Assembly (NCBI GenBank): GCA_028716085.1
Contig: JAQUQM010000008.1
Coordinates: 1-37,801, forward strand
DNA: 37,801 nucleotides
Reading direction: 5' to 3'
From: Dehalococcoidia bacterium
GTDB lineage: Bacteria; Chloroflexota; Dehalococcoidia; GIF9; UBA5629
A program made the position numbers and the translations under genes. Positions within the stretch are counted from its first letter, which is position 1. Each line of letters begins with the position of its first letter. The notes under the pieces were generated by a model. The model had not been told where the DNA came from. It was given only the letters and a program-made list of their open reading frames with translations, and did not search any database. Positions 10,152 to 21,214 of the stretch are shown one piece after another.

Positions 10152-11132
10152 ATGCAGAATAGCAAAACAATGCAGGCACCGTCGCACAAGCGGGGAAATT
10201 CGGGTACCAGCGGCGCCCGCCGTCTGGGCGACAGGATATTTTTTAACGCCACTCTGATTTTTGCCCTCTTAATCGTAGCCATTCTGATCGGCCTGCTGAT
10301 TGTCCTGAACATGGATGCCATGCCCGCCATTAATAAGTTCGGGCTGGCCTTCCTCACCGACAGTTCCTGGGATCCTGTGAAGGAAGTGTTCGGCGCCCTG
10401 CCGGCAATCTATGGAACGCTGCTGAGCTCCATAATCGGATTGGTTATTGCAGTGCCGGTCAGCCTGGGCGCAGCCATTTTCCTGGCTGAGCTGGCGCCGC
10501 GGTGGCTGAGCAGGCCCGGGTCCTTTCTCATCGAAATGCTGGCCGCCATACCGAGCGTCATCATCGGGTTGTGGGGCCTGTTCGTCATGGTGCCGGTCAT
10601 CCGAAATCCGGTAGAAAGCTGGCTGGGCAGTACCCTGGGATTTCTGCCCCTCTTTCAGGGGCCTCCCTTCGGTGTAGGTTTCCTGGCGGCGGGAGTCATC
10701 CTGGCTATCATGATTATTCCGATCATCACGGCGGTGAGCCGCGAGGTAATGGAGGCCGTGCCCGATACCCAGCGCGAGGCCATGCTGGCGCTGGGAGCCA
10801 CACGCTGGGAGATGATTCAAAAGGCGGTTTTGCCCTACTGCCGCTCCGGCCTTACTGGAGCTATAATACTGGGGCTGGGACGCGCGCTGGGCGAGACCAT
10901 GGCAGTGACCATGGTTATCGGCAACTCCTACGCCATTACCGAATCATTGTTTTCACCGGGCGTTACCATCGCCAGCAAGATAGCGAGTGAGTTCAGCGAG
11001 GCCTCCGGCGACGTCTATATCGGCAGCCTGGTGGAGCTGGCCCTGGTGCTTTTTGTGATCACGCTCCTGGTCAATATCATTGCGCGCCTGCTTGTCTGGC
11101 GCATGACGACGGTGAAGGCGGTAATTGGATGA
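10152..11132 (+). CDS. pstC: Phosphate ABC transporter permease PstC
   Basis: This inner-membrane half of the phosphate channel has 326 residues. A hydrophilic N terminus of about 30 residues precedes about six helices, the first at about 37-60. The cytoplasmic coupling (EAA-type) loop is in PDTQREAMLALGATRWEMI, which contacts PstB. FGALPAIYGTLLSS and LGRALGETMAVTMVIGN are typical PstC stretches. Its TGA stop overlaps the ATG of pstA in an ATGA tetranucleotide, indicating translational coupling. Length and motifs are normal. Confidence 0.95.
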   Translation: MQNSKTMQAPSHKRGNSGTSGARRLGDRIFFNATLIFALLIVAILIGLLIVLNMDAMPAINKFGLAFLTDSSWDPVKEVFGALPAIYGTLLSSIIGLVIAVPVSLGAAIFLAELAPRWLSRPGSFLIEMLAAIPSVIIGLWGLFVMVPVIRNPVESWLGSTLGFLPLFQGPPFGVGFLAAGVILAIMIIPIITAVSREVMEAVPDTQREAMLALGATRWEMIQKAVLPYCRSGLTGAIILGLGRALGETMAVTMVIGNSYAITESLFSPGVTIASKIASEFSEASGDVYIGSLVELALVLFVITLLVNIIARLLVWRMTTVKAVIG

Positions 11133-11977
11133 TAACGCAGGGCGCAGGCTATTTACGGCGAAAATGGTCCAGCCGTGCCATGCTGATACTGAGCGGTCTG
11201 GGCGCCGGGCTGTGCATACTGATCCTGGCGCTGATACTGGGCTATATCCTGTTTAACGGTATATCGTACCTCAACATGGATTTTCTTACACAGCCGGCCA
11301 AACCGGTGGGCGAAGCCGGTGGAGGTATGCGTGACGATATCATCGGCACATTTATCCTGGTAATACTGGGATCGGCAATAGCTTTGCCTGTAGGGCTGAT
11401 GGCCGGTGTTTTTCTGGCAGAGTACGGAAAGCCATGGGCGGCGTCTGCGGTACGCTTTGCGGCTGACATCCTGGCCGGCGTGCCATCGATCGTGGTGGGC
11501 GTCTTTGCTTATGCCGTCCTGGTTCGTCCCATGGGCTCCTACTCAGCGCTGTCGGCTGGTTTTGCGCTGGCGATCATTATGATTCCGGTCGTAGCCCGCA
11601 CGGCGGAGGAATCGATGCGCCTGGTGCCTAACTCGGTGCGTGAGGCGGCGCTGGCACTGGGCATACCGCGGTGGCGGGCGGTCGTCGGCGTGGTGATACC
11701 CGGCGCCCTGACAGGTATAGTTACAGGCATTATGCTTGCCGTGGCGCGTATTGCGGGAGAAACCGCCCCGCTGATATTCACCGCGCTGGGCAGCGCCTTT
11801 GGTTACCAGGGGCTCGACCAGCCTATCGGCGCCCTGCCCCTGCAGATATACCGCTATGCGCTGTCGCCCTATGATGACTGGCAGAAACAGGCCTGGGCCG
11901 CAGCCTTTTTGCTGGTGATAATTGTCCTTGGCATCAATATTGTTGTACGCCTGGTGAGCAGGCGAAGGCGCAGGTGA
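11129..11977 (+). CDS. pstA: Phosphate ABC transporter permease PstA
   Basis: This is the second permease subunit, 282 residues with about six transmembrane helices. The coupling loop is VPNSVREAALALGIPRWRAV. Family motifs include VGLMAGVFLAEYGK, LAGVPSIVVGVFAYAVLV and ARIAGETAPLIFTALG. It starts within the stop codon of pstC by a 4-base overlap. It ends 38 bp before pstB. Nothing unusual is seen; it pairs with PstC to form the phosphate pathway energised by PstB. Confidence 0.95.
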   Translation: MITQGAGYLRRKWSSRAMLILSGLGAGLCILILALILGYILFNGISYLNMDFLTQPAKPVGEAGGGMRDDIIGTFILVILGSAIALPVGLMAGVFLAEYGKPWAASAVRFAADILAGVPSIVVGVFAYAVLVRPMGSYSALSAGFALAIIMIPVVARTAEESMRLVPNSVREAALALGIPRWRAVVGVVIPGALTGIVTGIMLAVARIAGETAPLIFTALGSAFGYQGLDQPIGALPLQIYRYALSPYDDWQKQAWAAAFLLVIIVLGINIVVRLVSRRRRR

Positions 11978-12015
11978 TCAATAAGGAAAATGAATAACGA
12001 GGAATATGAAGATTT

Positions 12016-12849
12016 ATGGTGCACGAAGCAGTGAATCAGGCCGATAAGGAAAGCAGAAGTGAAGCGGTTGCAGCCGCGCCGGTGCATGTGAGGAACATAC
12101 TGGAGGTAAAAAACCTCAGCGCATGGTACGGGAACATGATGGCAGTGAATAATCTGACCATGAGCATCCATTCGCGGTCTATCACCGCCATCATCGGGCC
12201 GTCGGGTTGCGGCAAGTCCACCTTTATCCGCTGCCTTAACCGCATGCATGAGGTGTCGGATGGGGGAAGGGTGGAGGGCAAGGTGCTGCTGGACGGGAAA
12301 GACCTGTATGCCAGGGACGTTGATCCTGTAGAGATACGCCGCCGCATTGGCATGGTATTTCAAAAGCCCAGCGTGTTCCCCACCATGTCAATTTTCGATA
12401 ACGTGGCATCCGGCATCAGCCTGACCCGCCTGTGGAGCCGGAAGCGCGACCTGCAGGACGTGGTGGAGCGCAGCCTGAAGAAGGCGGCGCTGTGGGAAGA
12501 GGTGAAGGACAAGCTTAACCAGTCCGGAGGATCGCTCTCAGGCGGGCAACAGCAGAGGCTATGCATTGCACGGGCGATTGCCATCGCGCCCGAGATCATC
12601 CTGATGGATGAGCCGTGCTCCGCGCTCGATCCCATATCTACTTTAAAAATCGAAGAGCTGATGCTGGAAATCAAGAAGGACTACACTGTAATTATTGTGA
12701 CGCACAATATGCAGCAGGCGGCGCGTGTGTCCGACCGCACGGGATTCATGCTGCTGGGCGAGCTGATAGAATATGCGCCGACCAAGGAAGTGTTCACGGT
12801 TCCTAAAGACAAGAGAACCGAGGACTACATAACGGGCCGCTTCGGCTAA
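12016..12849 (+). CDS. pstB: Phosphate ABC transporter ATP-binding protein PstB
   Basis: This cytoplasmic ATPase drives phosphate import. The 277-residue product has Walker [10 protein letters not shown] at residues 61-69, the Q-loop in [19 protein letters not shown], the signature [16 protein letters not shown], Walker B IILMDEP, the D-loop SALDP and the switch histidine in [18 protein letters not shown] after Walker A is diagnostic of PstB. It is about 20 residues longer at the N terminus than the E. coli protein. GAGGA lies about 12 bases before ATG. phoU begins 13 bp later. Confidence 0.96.
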
Positions 12850-12862
12850 GGGAGGTTAAAGT

Positions 12863-13528
12863 ATGCCGAGAGAAACTTATCAGAGGCATTTACGGGAAAT
12901 ACAGGACGAAGTGATGGAGATGGGTGGCACGGTGGAAAAAGCGCTGGAATGGTCCATGCAGGCTTTAAAGAACCGTGACCTGGAGCTGGCCAAAAAGGTG
13001 GTGGACAACGATAAGGAGATAGATAAAAAGCGTTTTGCCATTGAAGAGCAAGCTCTTGACCTGATGAGCACACAGGCGCCCATGGCCAGCGATTTGAGGA
13101 TTCTGCTGGCAACGCTTTCTGTTATTACCGACCTGGAAAGGATGGCGGACCACGCAGCGGGCAATGCGAAAGTAGCGATTTTGATAGGAGATGAGCCGCC
13201 TTTGAAACCGCTCATCGACCTCCCCCGCATGAATGAGATCGTCATCGATATGCTGCATAAGAGCCTCGATGCCTTTATCCATCACGACGCTGAAGCAGCG
13301 CGGCAGATCGTTTCCAGGGATGATGAGATCGATCACCTTTATGACCAGGTATTCCGTGAGCTGCTGATTTTTATGATGGAGGACCCGCGCACCATCACGC
13401 GTGCTGAGAGGCTGATCTGGGTGGGACATAACCTGGAGCGGACAGGTGATAGGGTGACTAACATCTGTGAACGTGTTGTCTTCATGGTGACCGGCAAGAT
13501 GGAGGAGATGAATATTTCGACTTATTGA
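12863..13528 (+). CDS. phoU: Phosphate signalling complex protein PhoU
   Basis: PhoU is a peripheral regulator of the Pst transporter and of Pho signalling. The 221-residue helical protein has the usual two tandem three-helix bundles, about 1-105 and 115-215. Each carries the metal-binding E-x3-D type motif: DLERMADHAAGNA in the first and NLERTGDRVTNICERVVF in the second. GGAGG lies a few bases before the ATG. It is the last gene of the pst operon, and no phoR/phoB pair is in view. The 158 bp downstream hold no recognised terminator or gene. Confidence 0.94.
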   Translation: MPRETYQRHLREIQDEVMEMGGTVEKALEWSMQALKNRDLELAKKVVDNDKEIDKKRFAIEEQALDLMSTQAPMASDLRILLATLSVITDLERMADHAAGNAKVAILIGDEPPLKPLIDLPRMNEIVIDMLHKSLDAFIHHDAEAARQIVSRDDEIDHLYDQVFRELLIFMMEDPRTITRAERLIWVGHNLERTGDRVTNICERVVFMVTGKMEEMNISTY

Positions 13529-13686: not shown

Positions 13687-14187
13687 TTATAGTTCATGGG
13701 CGTTTAGTGTTGCCTGCAAAAAATAAACGATGTCTTTTTCTTCCTTTTTCCCAAACCAGGTTAAGATTTTAACAAATCCATATAAAATTAACGGAGCCAG
13801 GAAAATAATAAAATAGAAGATAGGAGAAATATTAATAGGACTCTCTGTACCACGTATCATATTTGTCAAAATAAATAGGTAGGGTGAAATACCGAATGCA
13901 ACAATCATCCCGTACATAGCATATATGATTCCCTGTACGACTAAATCCAAACCAAAATGACCAGAAATCTTTGTACCTGAATCGTCAGCTATGAGATTCC
14001 CGTATAAGACTGAGCCGCATGAATTATGATAACCAATTTGTCTTTTCCAAAGCTGAAACTTATTACCTTTTATTTTTCCCCCGATACCTTCAACACCAGA
14101 AAAATATGGTTGGTTATTTACAGAATTTTTGAGTCTTTCAATACAATTATCAATTTTCATGTCAGTATGCCAAGTAATTTCTATCAT
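13687..14187 (-). CDS. Hypothetical membrane protein, AT-rich
   Basis: I do not recognise a named family. The 166-residue product starts with a soluble region of about 90 residues (ERLKNSVNNQPYFSGVEGIG, FQLWKRQIGYHNSCGSVLYG, DDSGTKISGHFGL) that looks like a small beta-rich domain. Two strongly hydrophobic helices follow (about 90-115 and 125-150), then a short charged end. Similar soluble-domain-plus-two-helix hypotheticals occur sporadically in bacteria, from memory. Base composition is much lower in GC than the neighbouring pst and acyl-CoA synthetase genes, and the flanks are AT-rich too, which suggests recent acquisition. The ribosome site is weak; ATG 14160 is an alternative start. Confidence 0.65.
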   Translation of the reverse strand: MIEITWHTDMKIDNCIERLKNSVNNQPYFSGVEGIGGKIKGNKFQLWKRQIGYHNSCGSVLYGNLIADDSGTKISGHFGLDLVVQGIIYAMYGMIVAFGISPYLFILTNMIRGTESPINISPIFYFIIFLAPLILYGFVKILTWFGKKEEKDIVYFLQATLNAHEL

Positions 14188-14315: not shown

Positions 14316-17042
14316 TCAACGGCTTTCGGCGCAAACCATAATCCGGCCGTCTACCACTAGGTAGGCCTCTCCATCCGGCAACACTTTTACGGGATTGAGG
14401 TCCATCTCCATTATCTGCGGATTGTCTTCCACCATGGCGGAAATTCTGAGTATGAGGTCTTCAATAGAGGAGATGTCTGCCCGAGGGGATCCCCGCCAGC
14501 CTTCAAGCAGCTGGTAGGCCTTGACCGACCTCACCATTTCATGCGCGTCTATATCCGTCAACGGGTGGATACTGAAAGTCACGTCCTTAAACAGCTCAAC
14601 ATATATTCCGCCCAGCCCGAACATGATCAGCGGGCCGAATGACGGGTGCTGCGTGACGCCTACGATTACCTCTACACTGCTCTTGATCATCTTCTGGATG
14701 ATAACACCGTCCATTTCATTCTTTCTTCCGATCTTGTTCAGGTTCTTGCCGATCCGGTTGAATGCTTTTTCAACCTCCTCCGCAGTGCGGCAGTCAAGTA
14801 TGACGCCTTCCACATCCGTTTTCTGCGTGATGGAACTGGAAAGGAGTTTCACCGCTACGGGGAAGCCGATTTCCTGTGCAGCCTCCACGGCTTCGGCAGG
14901 CGTCTTTGCCAGCTTGAGAGGAACAACCTTTATGCCGTAGCAGTCAAGAAGGCCGGTGATTGACCCGGCATCGAGCCAGACCTGCGGTTGGCCGGCTTTC
15001 TGCAGTGCGGCATCAATGATCCCTGCCGCTTTTTCCTTGTCGATGTCCGGTAATTCGGGGATTATACCGACGGGCTTTTTGAGGCGCTCGCTGAACTGCA
15101 GCGCCCTGGAAAGTGCACCGGCTGTGGATTCGGGGAAGGCAAACGAAGGGACATAGCCCTTATCTTTAAATCCGAGCTCAACCCTGGTTCCGCGTAAACC
15201 GAGAAAGGAAGTGACCAGCGGCTTGCCTCCATCGCGGTAGGCAGGGGCTACTTCCCTGATAACGGCGGCGAACTCCTCGCTCAGGCTCAAGATGGGCGGG
15301 ATAAATATGGCGACAACGATATCGACGTTGACGTCTTCCCGCAACAGCTCGAGCGACTGTTTATACTGGTCAATGGAAAACTCAGGTGAGGTGTCAATAG
15401 GGTTGGACAGGTTGGCCCTGGCGGGCAGGATTGATTTCAGGCGCGTAATTGTATTATCGGTCAGGGCGGGTACTTCCAGCCCCCTTGCCCGGCACGCTTC
15501 AGCCGTGAGCAGGGCAGGGCCGCCGGCATTGGAGATAATGGCTACCCTGTTGCCGGCCGGCAAGGGCTGGTTGGCAAGCAGGCTGCCGGTATCGAACAGG
15601 TCTTCAAGTGTGTCGACCCTGAGGATGCCCGCCTGTTTGAACAATGCCTCGGTAGCCGCCTGATCGGTGGCAATGGCGCCGGTTTCAGATGTTGAAGTTC
15701 TTGCCCTGGGAGACGGGCTGGCGCTGGTGACTGCAACAACAGGCTTCTTGGCGGTTATGCTGCGCGCAATACGCGTGAACTTCCTCGGATTGCCGAAAGT
15801 TTCGAGGTAGAGAAGAACCACATCAGTCTCAGGGTCGTCCTCCCAGTACTGCATGAGCTCGTTACTGGAGATATCAGCGCGGTTACCGATACTGACGAAT
15901 GTCGATAACCCTATATTCAGGTTGTTGGAATACATCAATATGGCGGAGCCGAGGACGCCGCTCTGCGTGGCGAAGGCGATGTTGCCGTGCGGCGGAAAAA
16001 CATAGGAAAAAGTGGCGTTTAGATTGACAGCGGGATTTGTGTTAACCAGCCCCATGCAGTTCGGACCCAGCAGGCGCATACCGTAGCTGCGCACGGTTTT
16101 CAACAGCCTGTTCTGCCTTTCCAGTCCCTCGGGGCCGGTATCGGCAAAACCGGACGACAGCACAACTATGCCTTTAACGCCCTTGCGGGCGCATTCCTCG
16201 ACAATGTGCTGCACGGTTTCAGCCGGTGTGATGATGATGGCCAGGTCCACATCGCCCTGAATATCCAGGACGGAAGCGTAGGCCTTGATGGCGGCGATAG
16301 ATTCCGCCTTGGGATTTACGGGATAGATCACGCCTTTGAAGTCCTGCTGGATGAGGTTGCGAAAGACGAAATTGCCGATGGTATTGGGCCTTCGCGAGGC
16401 TCCTATGACCGCAACGGATTTTGGATTTAGAAACGTTCGCAGAGATGCGATGGAAGCGACCTTCTCGCGTTCCATGGATTTCTGCTCGACGATAGGTGTG
16501 GTGGCCAGGTCGAGCACTCCCAGGTAAGTGGTGCCCTGCATTTGCCTGTGCATGGTGAACCCGCTGTTCACCAGCACATTCATCATTTCACGGTTTTCCG
16601 AGAGCACCTCAGCTTCGAACTTGGTGATCCGCTTGTCCCTGGCGATAAATGCCAGCTGATCCAGAAGATGGCTGCCTATGCCCAGGCCCTGGTATTTGTC
16701 TTCAACCTCAAAAGCGATTTGGGCAACGGTATCGCCCGGCTGCCTGGCGTAGCGGCCTACCGCGATGATGCGTTCCTCGGCGTCTTCCCCCAGCGTGCCG
16801 ACCATGGCAAAGGTATTCTGATAGTCAACGGTGCAGAACTGGCGCGCCTCTTCCTTCGACATGTGTGTTATCACATGGTGGAAGCGCAGGTAGATTGTCT
16901 GTTTGCTCAGGCGGTTAAAAAAGGCGATCAGTTTCTCTTCGTCGGCCGTCATGATGGGGCGAAGGTGCAGGCTGGAGCCGTTTTTCAAAGCTACCGTTGC
17001 TGAGTATTTGTCCAGACTTCTATCATCCAAACCCATCGACAT
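14316..17042 (-). CDS. GNAT acetyltransferase fused to a pseudo NDP-forming acyl-CoA synthetase (Pat-like)
   Basis: The 908-residue fusion starts with a GNAT domain (about 20-185; acetyl-CoA loop YQGLGIGSHLLDQLAF). Next come the CoA-binding and ligase domains of ADP-forming acyl-CoA synthetases (about 200-660; FLNPKSVAVIGASRRPNTIG, RLLGPNCMGLVN) and a C-terminal ATP-grasp domain (about 690-900). The phosphorylated His of the SHTGAxAG motif is Glu453 (STSETGAIA). The second catalytic His, normally in an HKxDVGGV motif, is Gln740 (ITQKTDVEGV). Both phospho-relay residues are therefore missing. The best reading is a Pat-type protein lysine acetyltransferase with a non-catalytic ligand-sensing synthetase body. 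The GNAT is N-terminal, as I recall for actinobacterial Pat forms, not C-terminal as in enteric Pat. Confidence 0.9.
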   Translation of the reverse strand: MSMGLDDRSLDKYSATVALKNGSSLHLRPIMTADEEKLIAFFNRLSKQTIYLRFHHVITHMSKEEARQFCTVDYQNTFAMVGTLGEDAEERIIAVGRYARQPGDTVAQIAFEVEDKYQGLGIGSHLLDQLAFIARDKRITKFEAEVLSENREMMNVLVNSGFTMHRQMQGTTYLGVLDLATTPIVEQKSMEREKVASIASLRTFLNPKSVAVIGASRRPNTIGNFVFRNLIQQDFKGVIYPVNPKAESIAAIKAYASVLDIQGDVDLAIIITPAETVQHIVEECARKGVKGIVVLSSGFADTGPEGLERQNRLLKTVRSYGMRLLGPNCMGLVNTNPAVNLNATFSYVFPPHGNIAFATQSGVLGSAILMYSNNLNIGLSTFVSIGNRADISSNELMQYWEDDPETDVVLLYLETFGNPRKFTRIARSITAKKPVVAVTSASPSPRARTSTSETGAIATDQAATEALFKQAGILRVDTLEDLFDTGSLLANQPLPAGNRVAIISNAGGPALLTAEACRARGLEVPALTDNTITRLKSILPARANLSNPIDTSPEFSIDQYKQSLELLREDVNVDIVVAIFIPPILSLSEEFAAVIREVAPAYRDGGKPLVTSFLGLRGTRVELGFKDKGYVPSFAFPESTAGALSRALQFSERLKKPVGIIPELPDIDKEKAAGIIDAALQKAGQPQVWLDAGSITGLLDCYGIKVVPLKLAKTPAEAVEAAQEIGFPVAVKLLSSSITQKTDVEGVILDCRTAEEVEKAFNRIGKNLNKIGRKNEMDGVIIQKMIKSSVEVIVGVTQHPSFGPLIMFGLGGIYVELFKDVTFSIHPLTDIDAHEMVRSVKAYQLLEGWRGSPRADISSIEDLILRISAMVEDNPQIMEMDLNPVKVLPDGEAYLVVDGRIMVCAESR

Positions 17043-17253: not shown

Positions 17254-18285
17254 TTAAGCCACTTTGCTCTGCATGGACTTAATGATATCTTCCGCTTCGC
17301 TAACCATGCGCTCGATAACCTCTTTGCAGGTTGGCAGGTCGCGGATCCTGCCGATGACCTGTCCGAATGGAACCACACCATTTTCCAGGTCACCGTCATT
17401 CAGCACCTTGCCCAGGGCGTCGACGCCTATTGCCTGGCGGGCCAGTTCCGTCACGCCCCTTTTCTGCAGGCTGCCGAAGAGAAGCTTCCAGACCGGCACA
17501 TCGACCTGTTTCCTCAGCGCCCATCCGCTTTTCATTGCCTCGATGTATGAGGTTTTACCGGTCGACATTTCCAACGCACGCTTGTTTTTATACCAGCGGC
17601 CCGGCAGGCCGTCTATGCCGTCGGAGTAAATGGTGTCTTCCATATTGGTCTTGAGCGCGGTCTGCTTGATGTTGGGGTGAACATCGCATTCCTGGGTAAG
17701 CAGGAAGCGCGTGCCCATGGCGATGGCATCCGCTCCCAGCGCTATGGCCGCCGCCAGTCCCCTGCCGTCGCAGTATCCGCCTGCCGAGATGATGGGTGTT
17801 GTCACCTTGCTTGCTATTTGCGGGAGCAGTACCATGCCGCCGATATCGCTTCCATGAGCGGCAGCTTCGTGCGCTGTCACAATTAGCGCATCGGCCCCCT
17901 GCTCGGCAGCCCTGATGGCATGCCGCTCGGTAGCCACAGTGGAGATAACCTTGCCGCCGTACTCATGTGCGGCTTTAATTATCCAGTCTCCCTTGCCCAA
18001 TGCGAAATTGATGATGGGTGCTTTTTCCGCCAGGGCCACTTCCGCATTTTCCTTGCCGTTGGGGAAGATCAGGGTGACATTGATGGCAAAAGGTTTATCC
18101 GTCAGGGATTTGATCTCCTGAATGATGCCTTTTAACTGGTCCGGCGTGTTGGCGACGCTGTTAAAAATACCCAGTCCCCCTGCGTTTGAAACCGCTGCTA
18201 CCAGATGGGGCAAACTTACATAAGCCATTCCTGAAAGCAGTATGGGATGCTTGATGCCGAATGCTTCTGTAATCTTCGTTTTCAT
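17254..18285 (-). CDS. Nitronate monooxygenase / FabK-like flavoprotein
   Basis: This FMN-dependent TIM-barrel enzyme of the 2-nitropropane dioxygenase family has 343 residues. Family motifs are the N-terminal FGIKHPILLSGMAYVS, the loop AVSNAGGLG, the segment HEAAAHGSD carrying the usual active-site-region His, and the phosphate-binding ISAGGYCDGRGLAAAIALGA and GADAIAMGTRFLLTQE. Members include nitronate monooxygenases and enoyl-ACP reductase II, so the substrate is open. GGAGG lies 10 bases before the ATG. It is divergent from a paralogue at 18473 and precedes the GNAT-synthetase fusion on the same strand. Confidence 0.88.
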   Translation of the reverse strand: MKTKITEAFGIKHPILLSGMAYVSLPHLVAAVSNAGGLGIFNSVANTPDQLKGIIQEIKSLTDKPFAINVTLIFPNGKENAEVALAEKAPIINFALGKGDWIIKAAHEYGGKVISTVATERHAIRAAEQGADALIVTAHEAAAHGSDIGGMVLLPQIASKVTTPIISAGGYCDGRGLAAAIALGADAIAMGTRFLLTQECDVHPNIKQTALKTNMEDTIYSDGIDGLPGRWYKNKRALEMSTGKTSYIEAMKSGWALRKQVDVPVWKLLFGSLQKRGVTELARQAIGVDALGKVLNDGDLENGVVPFGQVIGRIRDLPTCKEVIERMVSEAEDIIKSMQSKVA

Positions 18286-18404
18286 AGGGATAAATCCTCC
18301 GGAATTTGTATAGTAGGATACGGAAGTTCTATGTTCTCAAAAAACACCCTGCTTGTCAAAATGATTGTTCGATCAATAAACACGCTCTGCCATGCTTGAT
18401 GACG

Positions 18405-18433
18405 TTGTTGTGGATGTATACAAATGCTATAAT
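18405..18433 (+). promoter_or_regulatory. Promoter of the plus-strand nitronate monooxygenase-synthetase pair
   Basis: TTGTTG (18405-18410) and a perfect TATAAT (18428-18433) are 17 bp apart, 39 bp before the start codon. In the opposite direction the same 187-bp gap has TTGACA (reverse complement at about 18353-18358) but no clean -10 at the right distance. Confidence 0.6.
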
Positions 18434-18472
18434 CGCTCGTCCCGACCATTTTACTGAACAAGGAGGCAAATC

Positions 18473-19465
18473 ATGAAAACCAGGATGACCGAGCTCTTCG
18501 GGATAAAGCATCCCATAATGTGTGGGGGTATGATGTGGCTGTGCAAGCCTGAACTCTGCGCTGCTGTTTCCAATGCGGGCGCCCTGGGCAATATTACGGC
18601 GGCCAACTACGATTCCGGTGAGGAATTGCGTAAGGCTATCAGAAAGACGCGAGAACTGACGGATAAGCCTTTTTCTGTGAACTTAACCCTGCTTCCGTCT
18701 TTCCGCATCACCAAGGAGATGTATAACGGCTGGTTCAATGCATGCCTCGAAGAGAAGGTGGCTGCTTTTGAGATATCCGGCGCGCCTGTTGATAAATTCT
18801 TCGGCCCGGATGCCGTCAAGAAAATTCACGACGCCGGCGCCAAGCTGATACACAAGGTAGGTTCTGTCAGGCATGCCAGGCATGCGGACCAGGTGGGGTA
18901 CGATGCTGTGATTGCAGCGGGTGTGGAAGAAGGCGGGCATCCCCTGAATGACGATGTGACTACCATGGTGTTGACGCCACGTATAGCGGAGTCGGTGAAA
19001 ATACCTGTGATAACCACCGGGGGCATAGCCGACGGAAGGGGACTTGCGGCGGCTCTGATACTGGGCGCCGAGGGTGTAATGATGGCGTCCCGGTTTATGG
19101 CCACGAAAGAATGCCGCATGAATAATAAAGTGAAGGAAGAGCTGGTGAGACGGCAGGAATTCGAAACTTCCCTGTACGGCAAGACGATAGAGCTGCAGGG
19201 ACGCGCTCTTAAAAACGTAGTGTTTAATCAGATACAGGAACTGGAAGCCAGGCATGCGAAAATTGAAGAGCTTGCACCCCTGCTGAGCGGCCTGCGCCAG
19301 CAAACGGTATGGGATAATGGAGATGTGGAGGCAGGCCTGATACCCGTAGGACAATCCATCGGCATGATTCATGACGTGGTGAGCTGCCAGGATCTTGTCG
19401 AACGAATCGTAAAGAATGCCGAGCAGATTCTGAAGAATTCAACCGGGCGCCTTCAAATCAGCTAA
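18473..19465 (+). CDS. Nitronate monooxygenase / FabK-like flavoprotein (paralogue)
   Basis: This is a 330-residue FMN TIM-barrel protein, clearly paralogous to the divergent gene at 17254-18285 (FGIKHPIM, AAVSNAGALG, LTDKPFSVNLTL are shared). Flavin-site motifs are AAGVEEGGHPLNDD (His after the Gly pair), ITTGGIADGRGLAAALILGA and GVMMASRFMATKE. The start is fixed by AAGGAGG ending 6 bases before the ATG. It is followed after 24 bp by an acyl-CoA synthetase alpha-type gene, so the two are likely co-transcribed. As for its paralogue, oxidation of a nitronate or reduction of an enoyl thioester are both possible from family membership. Confidence 0.88.
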   Translation: MKTRMTELFGIKHPIMCGGMMWLCKPELCAAVSNAGALGNITAANYDSGEELRKAIRKTRELTDKPFSVNLTLLPSFRITKEMYNGWFNACLEEKVAAFEISGAPVDKFFGPDAVKKIHDAGAKLIHKVGSVRHARHADQVGYDAVIAAGVEEGGHPLNDDVTTMVLTPRIAESVKIPVITTGGIADGRGLAAALILGAEGVMMASRFMATKECRMNNKVKEELVRRQEFETSLYGKTIELQGRALKNVVFNQIQELEARHAKIEELAPLLSGLRQQTVWDNGDVEAGLIPVGQSIGMIHDVVSCQDLVERIVKNAEQILKNSTGRLQIS

Positions 19466-19489: not shown

Positions 19490-21214
19490 ATGTGTGCTGA
19501 TATTGTAAAAGAGCTTGAACCTCTGTTTAATCCGAAATCGGTGGCCCATATAGGAGCGACCAATAACCGCAATAAATGGGGTTTTTCCACCATTACGAGC
19601 TTGATCAACACCTTCCAGGGGCCGATTTATCCGGTTAATACTCACGAAAACGATATTCAGGGCCTGAAGGTATACAGGAAAGTGACGGATATTGCGGAAC
19701 CGGTCGACCTGGCGGTTTTCACTATTCCGGCGGAACGTGTTGCGGAAGCTATGGAGGACTGCGTTGCCAAAGCCGTCAAGTCTGCCGTTGTCATCTCGGC
19801 CGGTTTTGCAGAGACCGGGCCGGAGGGGAAAAAGCTTCAAGACGAGGTATTGGGCATAGCGCGTAAAGGCAATATCAGGTTCATCGGTCCCAACTGTATG
19901 GGATACTGGAGCGCTTCATCGAACCTCGGTGCATTTATGATGCCGCTGCTGGTCAGGGACGGGCCGCTTGCCTTTGTATCACAGGGAGGCAATGTCGGCG
20001 CTGCTGTCGTTGTGGCGGGTTATGAGCGCGGAGTGGGATTTCACCGCTATGTCAGCTGCGGTTGTGCTGCGGATATAGCCATCGAGGATTACATAGAATA
20101 TTTCGGCAGGGACCCCGGGGTTAAAGTCATTATGACTTACATTGAAGGTCTTGATGACGGCAAAAGATTCATGGAGATAGTAAAAGAAGTAACATTGAAA
20201 AAACCCGTGATCGTCCTTAAACCGGGTAAAACTGAGGCCGCTGCCAAAGCCATCAAATCGCATTCGGGGGCCATGGCCGGATCAGACCAGATTTATGATG
20301 CGGCATTTAAGAAAATGGGAGCTACCCGTGTGGAAAATCCCGAGGAAATGCTGGACGTGGCCATAGGATTCCTGACCCAGCCCCTTCCCAAAGGAAGAAA
20401 TGTGGCGATTATTACTCCCGGGGGCAGTTACGGCGTTCTTTGCGCGGAAGCATGCGAGGAAGACCATCTGAATGTGATAAAGCTGCCTGATAAAACTATA
20501 CAAGCACTGGATAAAATGTTCCCGCCCAGGTGGAGCCATGGCAATCCCGTCGATCCTGCGGGCGACAGGAACTTCATAGCGTATTTAACCGCCCCTGAGG
20601 CATTGCTTGCCCTTAAAGAAGTCGATTCGTTGATCTTTATGGGTTTTGGCGGATTTACCTTATTTGGTAATCTGCTGATGCAGCAGCGCTCGAAAGTGGA
20701 ACAGCAACAGATGAAGCCGGAGGAAATCACGCTCAGGGATGCTGCCTTGCGGGCCATAATCCCCATTCTGGAGAATATCCGGTCGGGCGATGTTGATAAG
20801 ACAGAAGCCGGCATCAGGACACTGATACAGATGCTGGGTATGGTCCTGGGTATCAAGAATGAGATGGAAATTGAAGACCTTGCGATTATGACAATTGCAG
20901 CCAGGCATTCAGGAAAGATGGATGACATCCTCATCGATGATTTGATGGAGCTGGCAAGCGGAAAAGCTTTGGCCAACGGCAGCGGCAGGTCGCGCGTGGA
21001 GATAATTAACGATCTCATCAGCAGGCTCTTGCGGGCTTTGGTCAGCCAGTGGATAGAAAGCTGGGGCAAACCTGTGATCACAACCACATTTACCGAGGAG
21101 CAGGTGAAATTGATAGGCGATCATTACGACTATACTTCAGGGAAAAGAGCGGCCAGGGTACTGGTCAAATTGACCGAGTACTATTCATATCTTCACAATA
21201 TCGGAGCGGTTTGA
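19490..21214 (+). CDS. NDP-forming acyl-CoA synthetase, alpha-type subunit only
   Basis: The family interconverts acyl-CoA plus ADP and phosphate with acid, ATP and CoA through a phosphohistidine. The 574-residue product has the CoA-binding Rossmann domain (LFNPKSVAHIGATNNRNKWG, IRFIGPNCMGYWSASSN), the first ligase domain (FVSQGGNVGAAVV) and the catalytic histidine His258 in KSHSGAMAGSD. A second ligase-like domain follows, then about 110 residues I cannot assign. There is no ATP-grasp (beta) domain in the protein or next to it, so it needs a beta subunit encoded elsewhere or has another role. Start ATG 19490 has only a weak ribosome site, consistent with coupling to the upstream gene. Confidence 0.87.
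   Translation: MCADIVKELEPLFNPKSVAHIGATNNRNKWGFSTITSLINTFQGPIYPVNTHENDIQGLKVYRKVTDIAEPVDLAVFTIPAERVAEAMEDCVAKAVKSAVVISAGFAETGPEGKKLQDEVLGIARKGNIRFIGPNCMGYWSASSNLGAFMMPLLVRDGPLAFVSQGGNVGAAVVVAGYERGVGFHRYVSCGCAADIAIEDYIEYFGRDPGVKVIMTYIEGLDDGKRFMEIVKEVTLKKPVIVLKPGKTEAAAKAIKSHSGAMAGSDQIYDAAFKKMGATRVENPEEMLDVAIGFLTQPLPKGRNVAIITPGGSYGVLCAEACEEDHLNVIKLPDKTIQALDKMFPPRWSHGNPVDPAGDRNFIAYLTAPEALLALKEVDSLIFMGFGGFTLFGNLLMQQRSKVEQQQMKPEEITLRDAALRAIIPILENIRSGDVDKTEAGIRTLIQMLGMVLGIKNEMEIEDLAIMTIAARHSGKMDDILIDDLMELASGKALANGSGRSRVEIINDLISRLLRALVSQWIESWGKPVITTTFTEEQVKLIGDHYDYTSGKRAARVLVKLTEYYSYLHNIGAV

Follow-up and report, generated by a model that had tools for sequence, protein, structure and literature searches.

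What does an acyl-CoA synthetase do once it is joined to an acetyltransferase and no longer carries the histidines of its own chemistry? This question is raised by one gene in the stretch of 37,801 nucleotides from a Dehalococcoidia bacterium analysed here (the window). The open reading frame (positions 14316-17042, minus strand, stop codon included) starts with ATG, is intact in the window and encodes a 908-residue, type II Pat-like fusion of a GNAT domain with an ADP-forming acyl-CoA synthetase. A sequence-only reading had proposed that the synthetase body is a pseudoenzyme sensor controlling a lysine acetyltransferase. We put the odds slightly above even (about 0.55) that the protein is an acyl-CoA-sensing, synthetase-dead, type II Pat-like acetyltransferase of AMP-forming acyl-CoA synthetases that arose by tandem duplication. 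The sequence backs this through domain architecture, residue losses, phylogeny, synteny, purifying selection and the presence of candidate targets and erasers.

The GNAT domain, delimited with Pfam (about residues 25-163) and the 4nxy and 4u5y structures, comprises residues 13-178 (16509-17006; all features of this gene lie on the minus strand). It is followed in Pfam by the domains CoA_binding (residues 207-334, 16041-16424), Succ_CoA_lig, which bears the swinging loop (353-488, 15579-15986), Ligase_CoA_2 (500-615, 15198-15545) and ATP-grasp_5 (687-903, 14334-14984). In an AlphaFold2 model of the fusion protein, calculated from a 56-row alignment (pLDDT 88.3, pTM 0.84), residues 442-449, inside the swinging loop, form one of two low-confidence stretches. 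The best structural matches of the model are ADP-forming synthetases (including DddX), E. coli PatZ and the GNAT domain of S. lividans PatA. Residues 199-903 match the N. maritimus 4-hydroxybutyryl-CoA synthetase (8wzu) over 608 residues at 2.9 Å (Z 44.5), with the subdomain order 1-2-5-4-3 and the overall fold of an ADP-forming synthetase, and residues 193-908 match E. coli PatZ (9it0, Z 38.4). The S. lividans PatA GNAT structures superimpose on the window GNAT with Z 26-27 at 1.1-1.5 Å (4u5y on residues 9-179: Z 26.9, 1.1 Å). Pfam and the structural matches confirm the N-terminal position that had been assigned to the GNAT domain.

When aligned to 8wzu, window residue 453 corresponds to His256 and residue 740 to His535. 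These are the swinging-loop histidine and the first phosphate acceptor, respectively, both belonging to the phosphorelay (PMC11494057, cited from part of the text). The window protein has Glu453 (GAA, 15684-15686) and Gln740 (CAG, 14823-14825) instead, in the contexts S-E-TGA and TQKTDVEGV, so that neither the phospho-histidine of SHTGA nor the ATP-grasp histidine of HK-x-D-V-G-G-V is present. Numbering and residues are as the sequence-only reading gave them, and the alignment that it had suggested, against ADP-forming synthetases and E. coli PatZ, has both relay positions replaced. A histidine elsewhere in either relay motif, which the same reading had named as contrary evidence, was sought in the alignments of the window protein and its relatives and is absent. 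The swinging-loop mutant His292Ala of DddX, a member of the same superfamily, is inactive (PMC8163506, cited in part). Absence of one or both histidines does not by itself prove that no ligase activity is left.

The replacements are shared by a clade of nine sequences, the window clade, in which residue 740 is Gln in all nine and residue 453 is Gln or Glu in eight (pairs at 453/740: two EQ, six QQ and one HQ). The single member with the swinging-loop histidine left is the L050 copy. The changes are focused: among 72 positions whose conservation reaches 95% or more across 139 sequences that have both histidines, eight are changed in at least eight of the nine clade members (E301, K439, G441, A449, H453, H740, G745 and D799), and six of these eight fall within the swinging loop or the ATP-grasp histidine motif (Fisher p 3e-5, with 10 conserved positions in the two segments and 62 elsewhere, the segments having been picked after the list was known). 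In the altered swinging-loop region (residues 439-458, 15669-15728; loop as named in PMC11494057, delimited by conservation comparison), T439, A441, T449 and E453 replace the conserved K, G, A and H. D515 is altered in five of the nine members, a few other conserved positions are altered in one or two, and the rest are kept; together with the match to 8wzu this bears out the earlier statement that the overall motifs of the synthetase fold persist.

The acetyl-CoA-binding loop of the GNAT domain (Q/R-x-x-G-x-G/A) is likewise present, as had been noted, in the form QGLGIG (residues 118-123). The general-base position, on the other hand, had escaped the sequence-only reading, which is incomplete in this respect. 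Gln108 (CAA, 16719-16721) aligns without gaps with the general-base Glu809 of PatZ and SePat; each of the nine clade members has Gln here, whereas Glu occupies this position in 92 of the 101 N-terminal fusions with both histidines, in 7 of 7 actinomycete sequences and in all 26 C-terminal fusions. Since this replacement is fixed in the clade, the GNAT domain may be weak or dead.

The rival explanation that survives best follows from this change: synthetase and GNAT would both be catalytically dead, and the protein would bind acyl-CoA and serve as a regulator or scaffold. Across the clade, replacements affect all three residues with a putative catalytic role (108, 453 and 740), and among 21 conserved GNAT positions 108 alone is changed in at least eight of the nine members. 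Against this reading, the acetyl-CoA loop is retained, Glu112, on the same predicted strand as residue 108, is fixed in all nine members and absent from the 101 relatives, and within the window clade the GNAT domain has diverged less than the body (GNAT/core divergence ratio 0.84, 28 pairs of 8 sequences, against 1.25 in 300 pairs of 25 relatives with both histidines). These ratios fit a shift of constraint toward the GNAT domain, although the pairs share history. Moreover, mutation of E809 is reported to reduce activity without abolishing it, and SePat carrying E809Q shows no defect in vivo (PMC8556138, cited in part). Because the residue is thus described as non-essential in SePat, we do not take Glu at position 108 as defining a type II Pat. 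A protein dead in both halves is a serious contender, but clearly a less probable one than an acetyltransferase with a silent synthetase.

It is improbable that the synthetase is still an active ligase that uses a different phosphate acceptor or receives relay residues in trans from one of the alpha or beta subunits encoded in the genome; we know of no precedent for such an arrangement. Most conserved synthetase positions are retained, and the genome encodes a stand-alone beta subunit (THKSDSGGV) besides numerous alpha-type proteins that also stand alone, but the sites that changed are precisely relay and loop sites, and the chain itself holds defective copies of both halves.

In trees calculated with both histidine motifs masked (FastTree, and IQ-TREE on 34 rows), the nine sequences of the window clade form one group (FastTree support 100). 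Their sister is a pair of tandem paralogues with intact histidines, L050_3085 and L039_3865 (support 99 in FastTree, 100/98 in IQ-TREE). Clade and sister are nested among N-terminal GNAT fusions with both histidines, and the loss is therefore derived and later than the fusion. The paralogues use CAC or CAT for both histidines, and the clade members have CAA, CAG, GAA or GAG at positions 453 and 740, with the exception of CAT at 453 in the L050 copy. Judged by these sequences, a fusion with both histidines was duplicated in tandem, and the window clade is the derived copy.

Within the available stretches, the relatives examined share the order alpha-type synthetase, NMO genes, fusion, PhoU-PstB-PstA. 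In the window the conserved neighbours are a stand-alone ADP-forming synthetase alpha-type protein that keeps the phospho-histidine (SHSGA; 19490-21214, plus strand) and, on the other flank, PstA-PstB-PhoU (11129-13528, plus strand; Pfam and synteny). The intact paralogue or its remnant is found in relatives between the fusion gene and that of the NMO/FabK-like flavoprotein NMO1 (17254-18285, minus strand). In L050 the clade member has the paralogue with both histidines immediately upstream; in L039 a frame-changing deletion interrupts the GNAT domain of the paralogue, L191 has lost most of the paralogue, and in L011 only a C-terminal scar of it is left, these single defects being less certain because the genomes are metagenome assemblies. 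The synteny comparison found no paralogue remnant in the window, L192, L193 or L194.

A few other features of the locus and genome may be recorded here. NMO1 is part of a divergent pair of FabK/NMO-like flavoproteins (17254-19465); a third copy, missing from the window, occurs in several relatives. For the 166-residue protein encoded at 13687-14187 (minus strand), neither Pfam nor tblastn against the syntenic relatives examined gave a match. Succ_CoA_lig-type matches number 15 in the genome, most of them in ORFs of 470-580 residues, against only three ATP-grasp_5 matches, one of them the stand-alone beta subunit of 243 residues with the THKSDSGGV motif. One beta subunit may be shared by many alpha subunits.

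Neutral decay of a duplicate on its way to a pseudogene could point to the damaged sister copies nearby and to L195:4100-5460, where the orthologous locus holds only a truncated, frameshifted C-terminal piece that keeps the ATP-grasp histidine. We reject this explanation, which we consider very unlikely, because it is contradicted by the intact reading frame and by low dN/dS. Against the nearest relative, NG86 dN/dS is 0.046 overall, 0.028 for the GNAT domain, 0.017 for the domain that lacks the phospho-histidine and 0.051 for ATP-grasp, with every domain at 0.02-0.06, values that are rough because dS exceeds 1 in most domains (several more distant pairs were saturated). Purifying selection is thus strong on all domains, which argues against a dying gene, and the histidine-less copy is retained where the intact sister is lost. 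A sequencing or assembly artefact in this metagenome-like genome of 165 contigs has practically no probability left and was rejected, since nine sequences share the replacements with different synonymous codons.

How common is the loss among proteins of this architecture? We compared 169 distinct sequences, taken from the relatives, a scan of genome contigs (80 loci), a search through 393 genomes belonging to the window's class (84 with E <= 1e-100, from which rows with a near-complete core were taken), a plasmid search (15 of 216 records used) and E. coli records; before counting, we removed ORFs with incomplete coverage of the core and sequences that did not differ in their last 500 core residues. 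Both relay histidines are retained in 126 of the 143 distinct GNAT-synthetase fusions in this sample, which was assembled by searching with the window protein or its conserved peptides and is biased to the query, partly related and not random. The count is 101 of 117 for N-terminal and 25 of 26 for C-terminal GNAT fusions, and both histidines are present in 26 of 26 synthetases in which no GNAT domain was found, of which three (L061, L097 and L155) start at a contig end, so that absence of the domain is not established for them. The 17 fusions that lost a histidine fall in three groups only: the Dehalococcoidia clade of the window (9), an actinomycete clade (7) and E. coli PatZ (1). The open-access literature, from which subscription papers are mostly absent, yielded no account of such a two-histidine census in GNAT fusions or of the window clade.

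Fusions with both histidines include L050:3085-5943, L017, L018 and L047, and NCBI labels some relatives as bifunctional GNAT / acetate--CoA ligase, which is an annotation and not a test. Four sequences without GNAT (L158, L161, L163 and L164) keep both histidines and are nested among N-terminal fusions, a pattern that suggests repeated loss of the GNAT domain while both histidines stay. On a Tsukamurella plasmid (L199:180-4113), an AcuC-type deacetylase gene overlaps the start of a fusion gene in which both relay motifs are lost.

In a review, the synthetase body of type I and type II Pat enzymes has been described as inactive because a histidine is missing (PMC8556138, in part). As 126 of 143 fusions keep both histidines, this description cannot be assumed for the architecture, and architecture alone does not imply a pseudoenzyme. 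The earlier proposal of a pseudoenzyme body that controls a lysine acetyltransferase gains support from the relay mapping, the loss of both histidines, the retention of the rest of the body and a genome rich in candidate targets and deacetylases. It overlooked how many relatives of the same architecture have intact relay residues, and it is largely anticipated in print (PMC8556138); the broader histidine census is the more interesting outcome. Tentatively, we speculate that most bacterial fusions are self-fuelled acyltransferases, in which the body would convert free acid, ATP and CoA into the acyl-CoA used by the GNAT domain. The view of the body as an inactive sensor would then stem from few derived cases, and the window clade would be a natural synthetase knock-out that came about through duplication; in one tandem pair the two copies would have decayed in complementary ways, the sister losing its GNAT domain and the window-type copy its synthetase. 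Tandem pairs such as that in L050, where an intact copy sits beside a histidine-poor one, amount to an experiment of nature on the share of the synthetase reaction in protein acetylation.

P-x4-G-K is the acetylation-site motif of AMP-forming acyl-CoA synthetases. The window's own genome has 18 AMP-binding matches, and the motif occurs near the C terminus in 11 of the 15 loci examined; L214 is a clear acetate-CoA ligase (it passes the acetate--CoA ligase model). Two sirtuins and HDAC-type matches at three places were also found. At L236:611-3401 (contig C111), an HDAC-type gene immediately precedes the gene of an AMP-forming acyl-CoA synthetase with PKNLMGK. No AMP-forming acyl-CoA synthetase is encoded among the neighbouring window genes scanned. 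In Dehalococcoides mccartyi, a member of the same class, Acs is acetylated in stationary phase (PMC7918482, in part), and pairs of the L050 type belong to a bacterial class in which Acs acetylation has been seen in culture. The candidate targets and deacetylases in the genome make an acetyltransferase as writer plausible; their link to the window protein is circumstantial.

For the synthetase-dead acetyltransferase that we favour, we propose the following model. The histidine-poor copy would have arisen when a fusion that had both histidines was duplicated in tandem. Its body would be unable to run the relay from ATP via the ATP-grasp histidine and the swinging-loop histidine to acyl phosphate and acyl-CoA, and would thereby have lost ligase activity. 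Because the fold and most conserved sites are kept, the body most likely binds acyl-CoA, and perhaps nucleotide, and such binding would set the oligomeric state and the activity of the GNAT domain. We infer that the protein acts in this way as a sensor and acetyltransferase, responsive to the acyl-CoA level. Its likely targets would be the active-site lysines in the P-x4-G-K motif of the AMP-forming acyl-CoA synthetases of the genome, and sirtuin or HDAC-type deacetylases would serve as erasers.

Among known systems, type II GNATs have an N-terminal GNAT domain and a synthetase domain described as inactive because it has no catalytic histidine, and acetyl-CoA sensing has been proposed for them (PMC8556138, in part). 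With Glu453 and Gln740, the window protein has no catalytic histidine either. By architecture only, it is type II Pat-like: S. lividans PatA shares the N-terminal GNAT domain and the C-terminal ADP/NDP-forming synthetase body, but has a collagen-like segment (PMC8556138, in part; PMC4053389) and, in its GNAT domain, by which alone it was compared, the E809-type Glu where the window protein has Gln108. The type I enzymes E. coli PatZ and S. enterica Pat also combine GNAT with a pseudo-synthetase, but their GNAT domain is C-terminal, and PatZ has lost only the swinging-loop histidine of the relay while keeping the ATP-grasp histidine and Glu809. The N. maritimus enzyme 8wzu, Ca. Korarchaeum ACD1 and DddX have the same body, with the subdomain order seen in 8wzu, but possess the relay histidines and no GNAT domain. 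The closest phylogenetic relatives, the GNAT-synthetase fusions with both histidines, share the architecture and differ in their intact relay residues. What goes beyond the known type II Pat proteins is the census majority with both histidines and a derived tandem-duplicate clade with focused residue changes, and by its sequence the window protein is set apart from them by the joint loss, in that duplicate clade, of both histidines, the loop residues and the GNAT glutamate.
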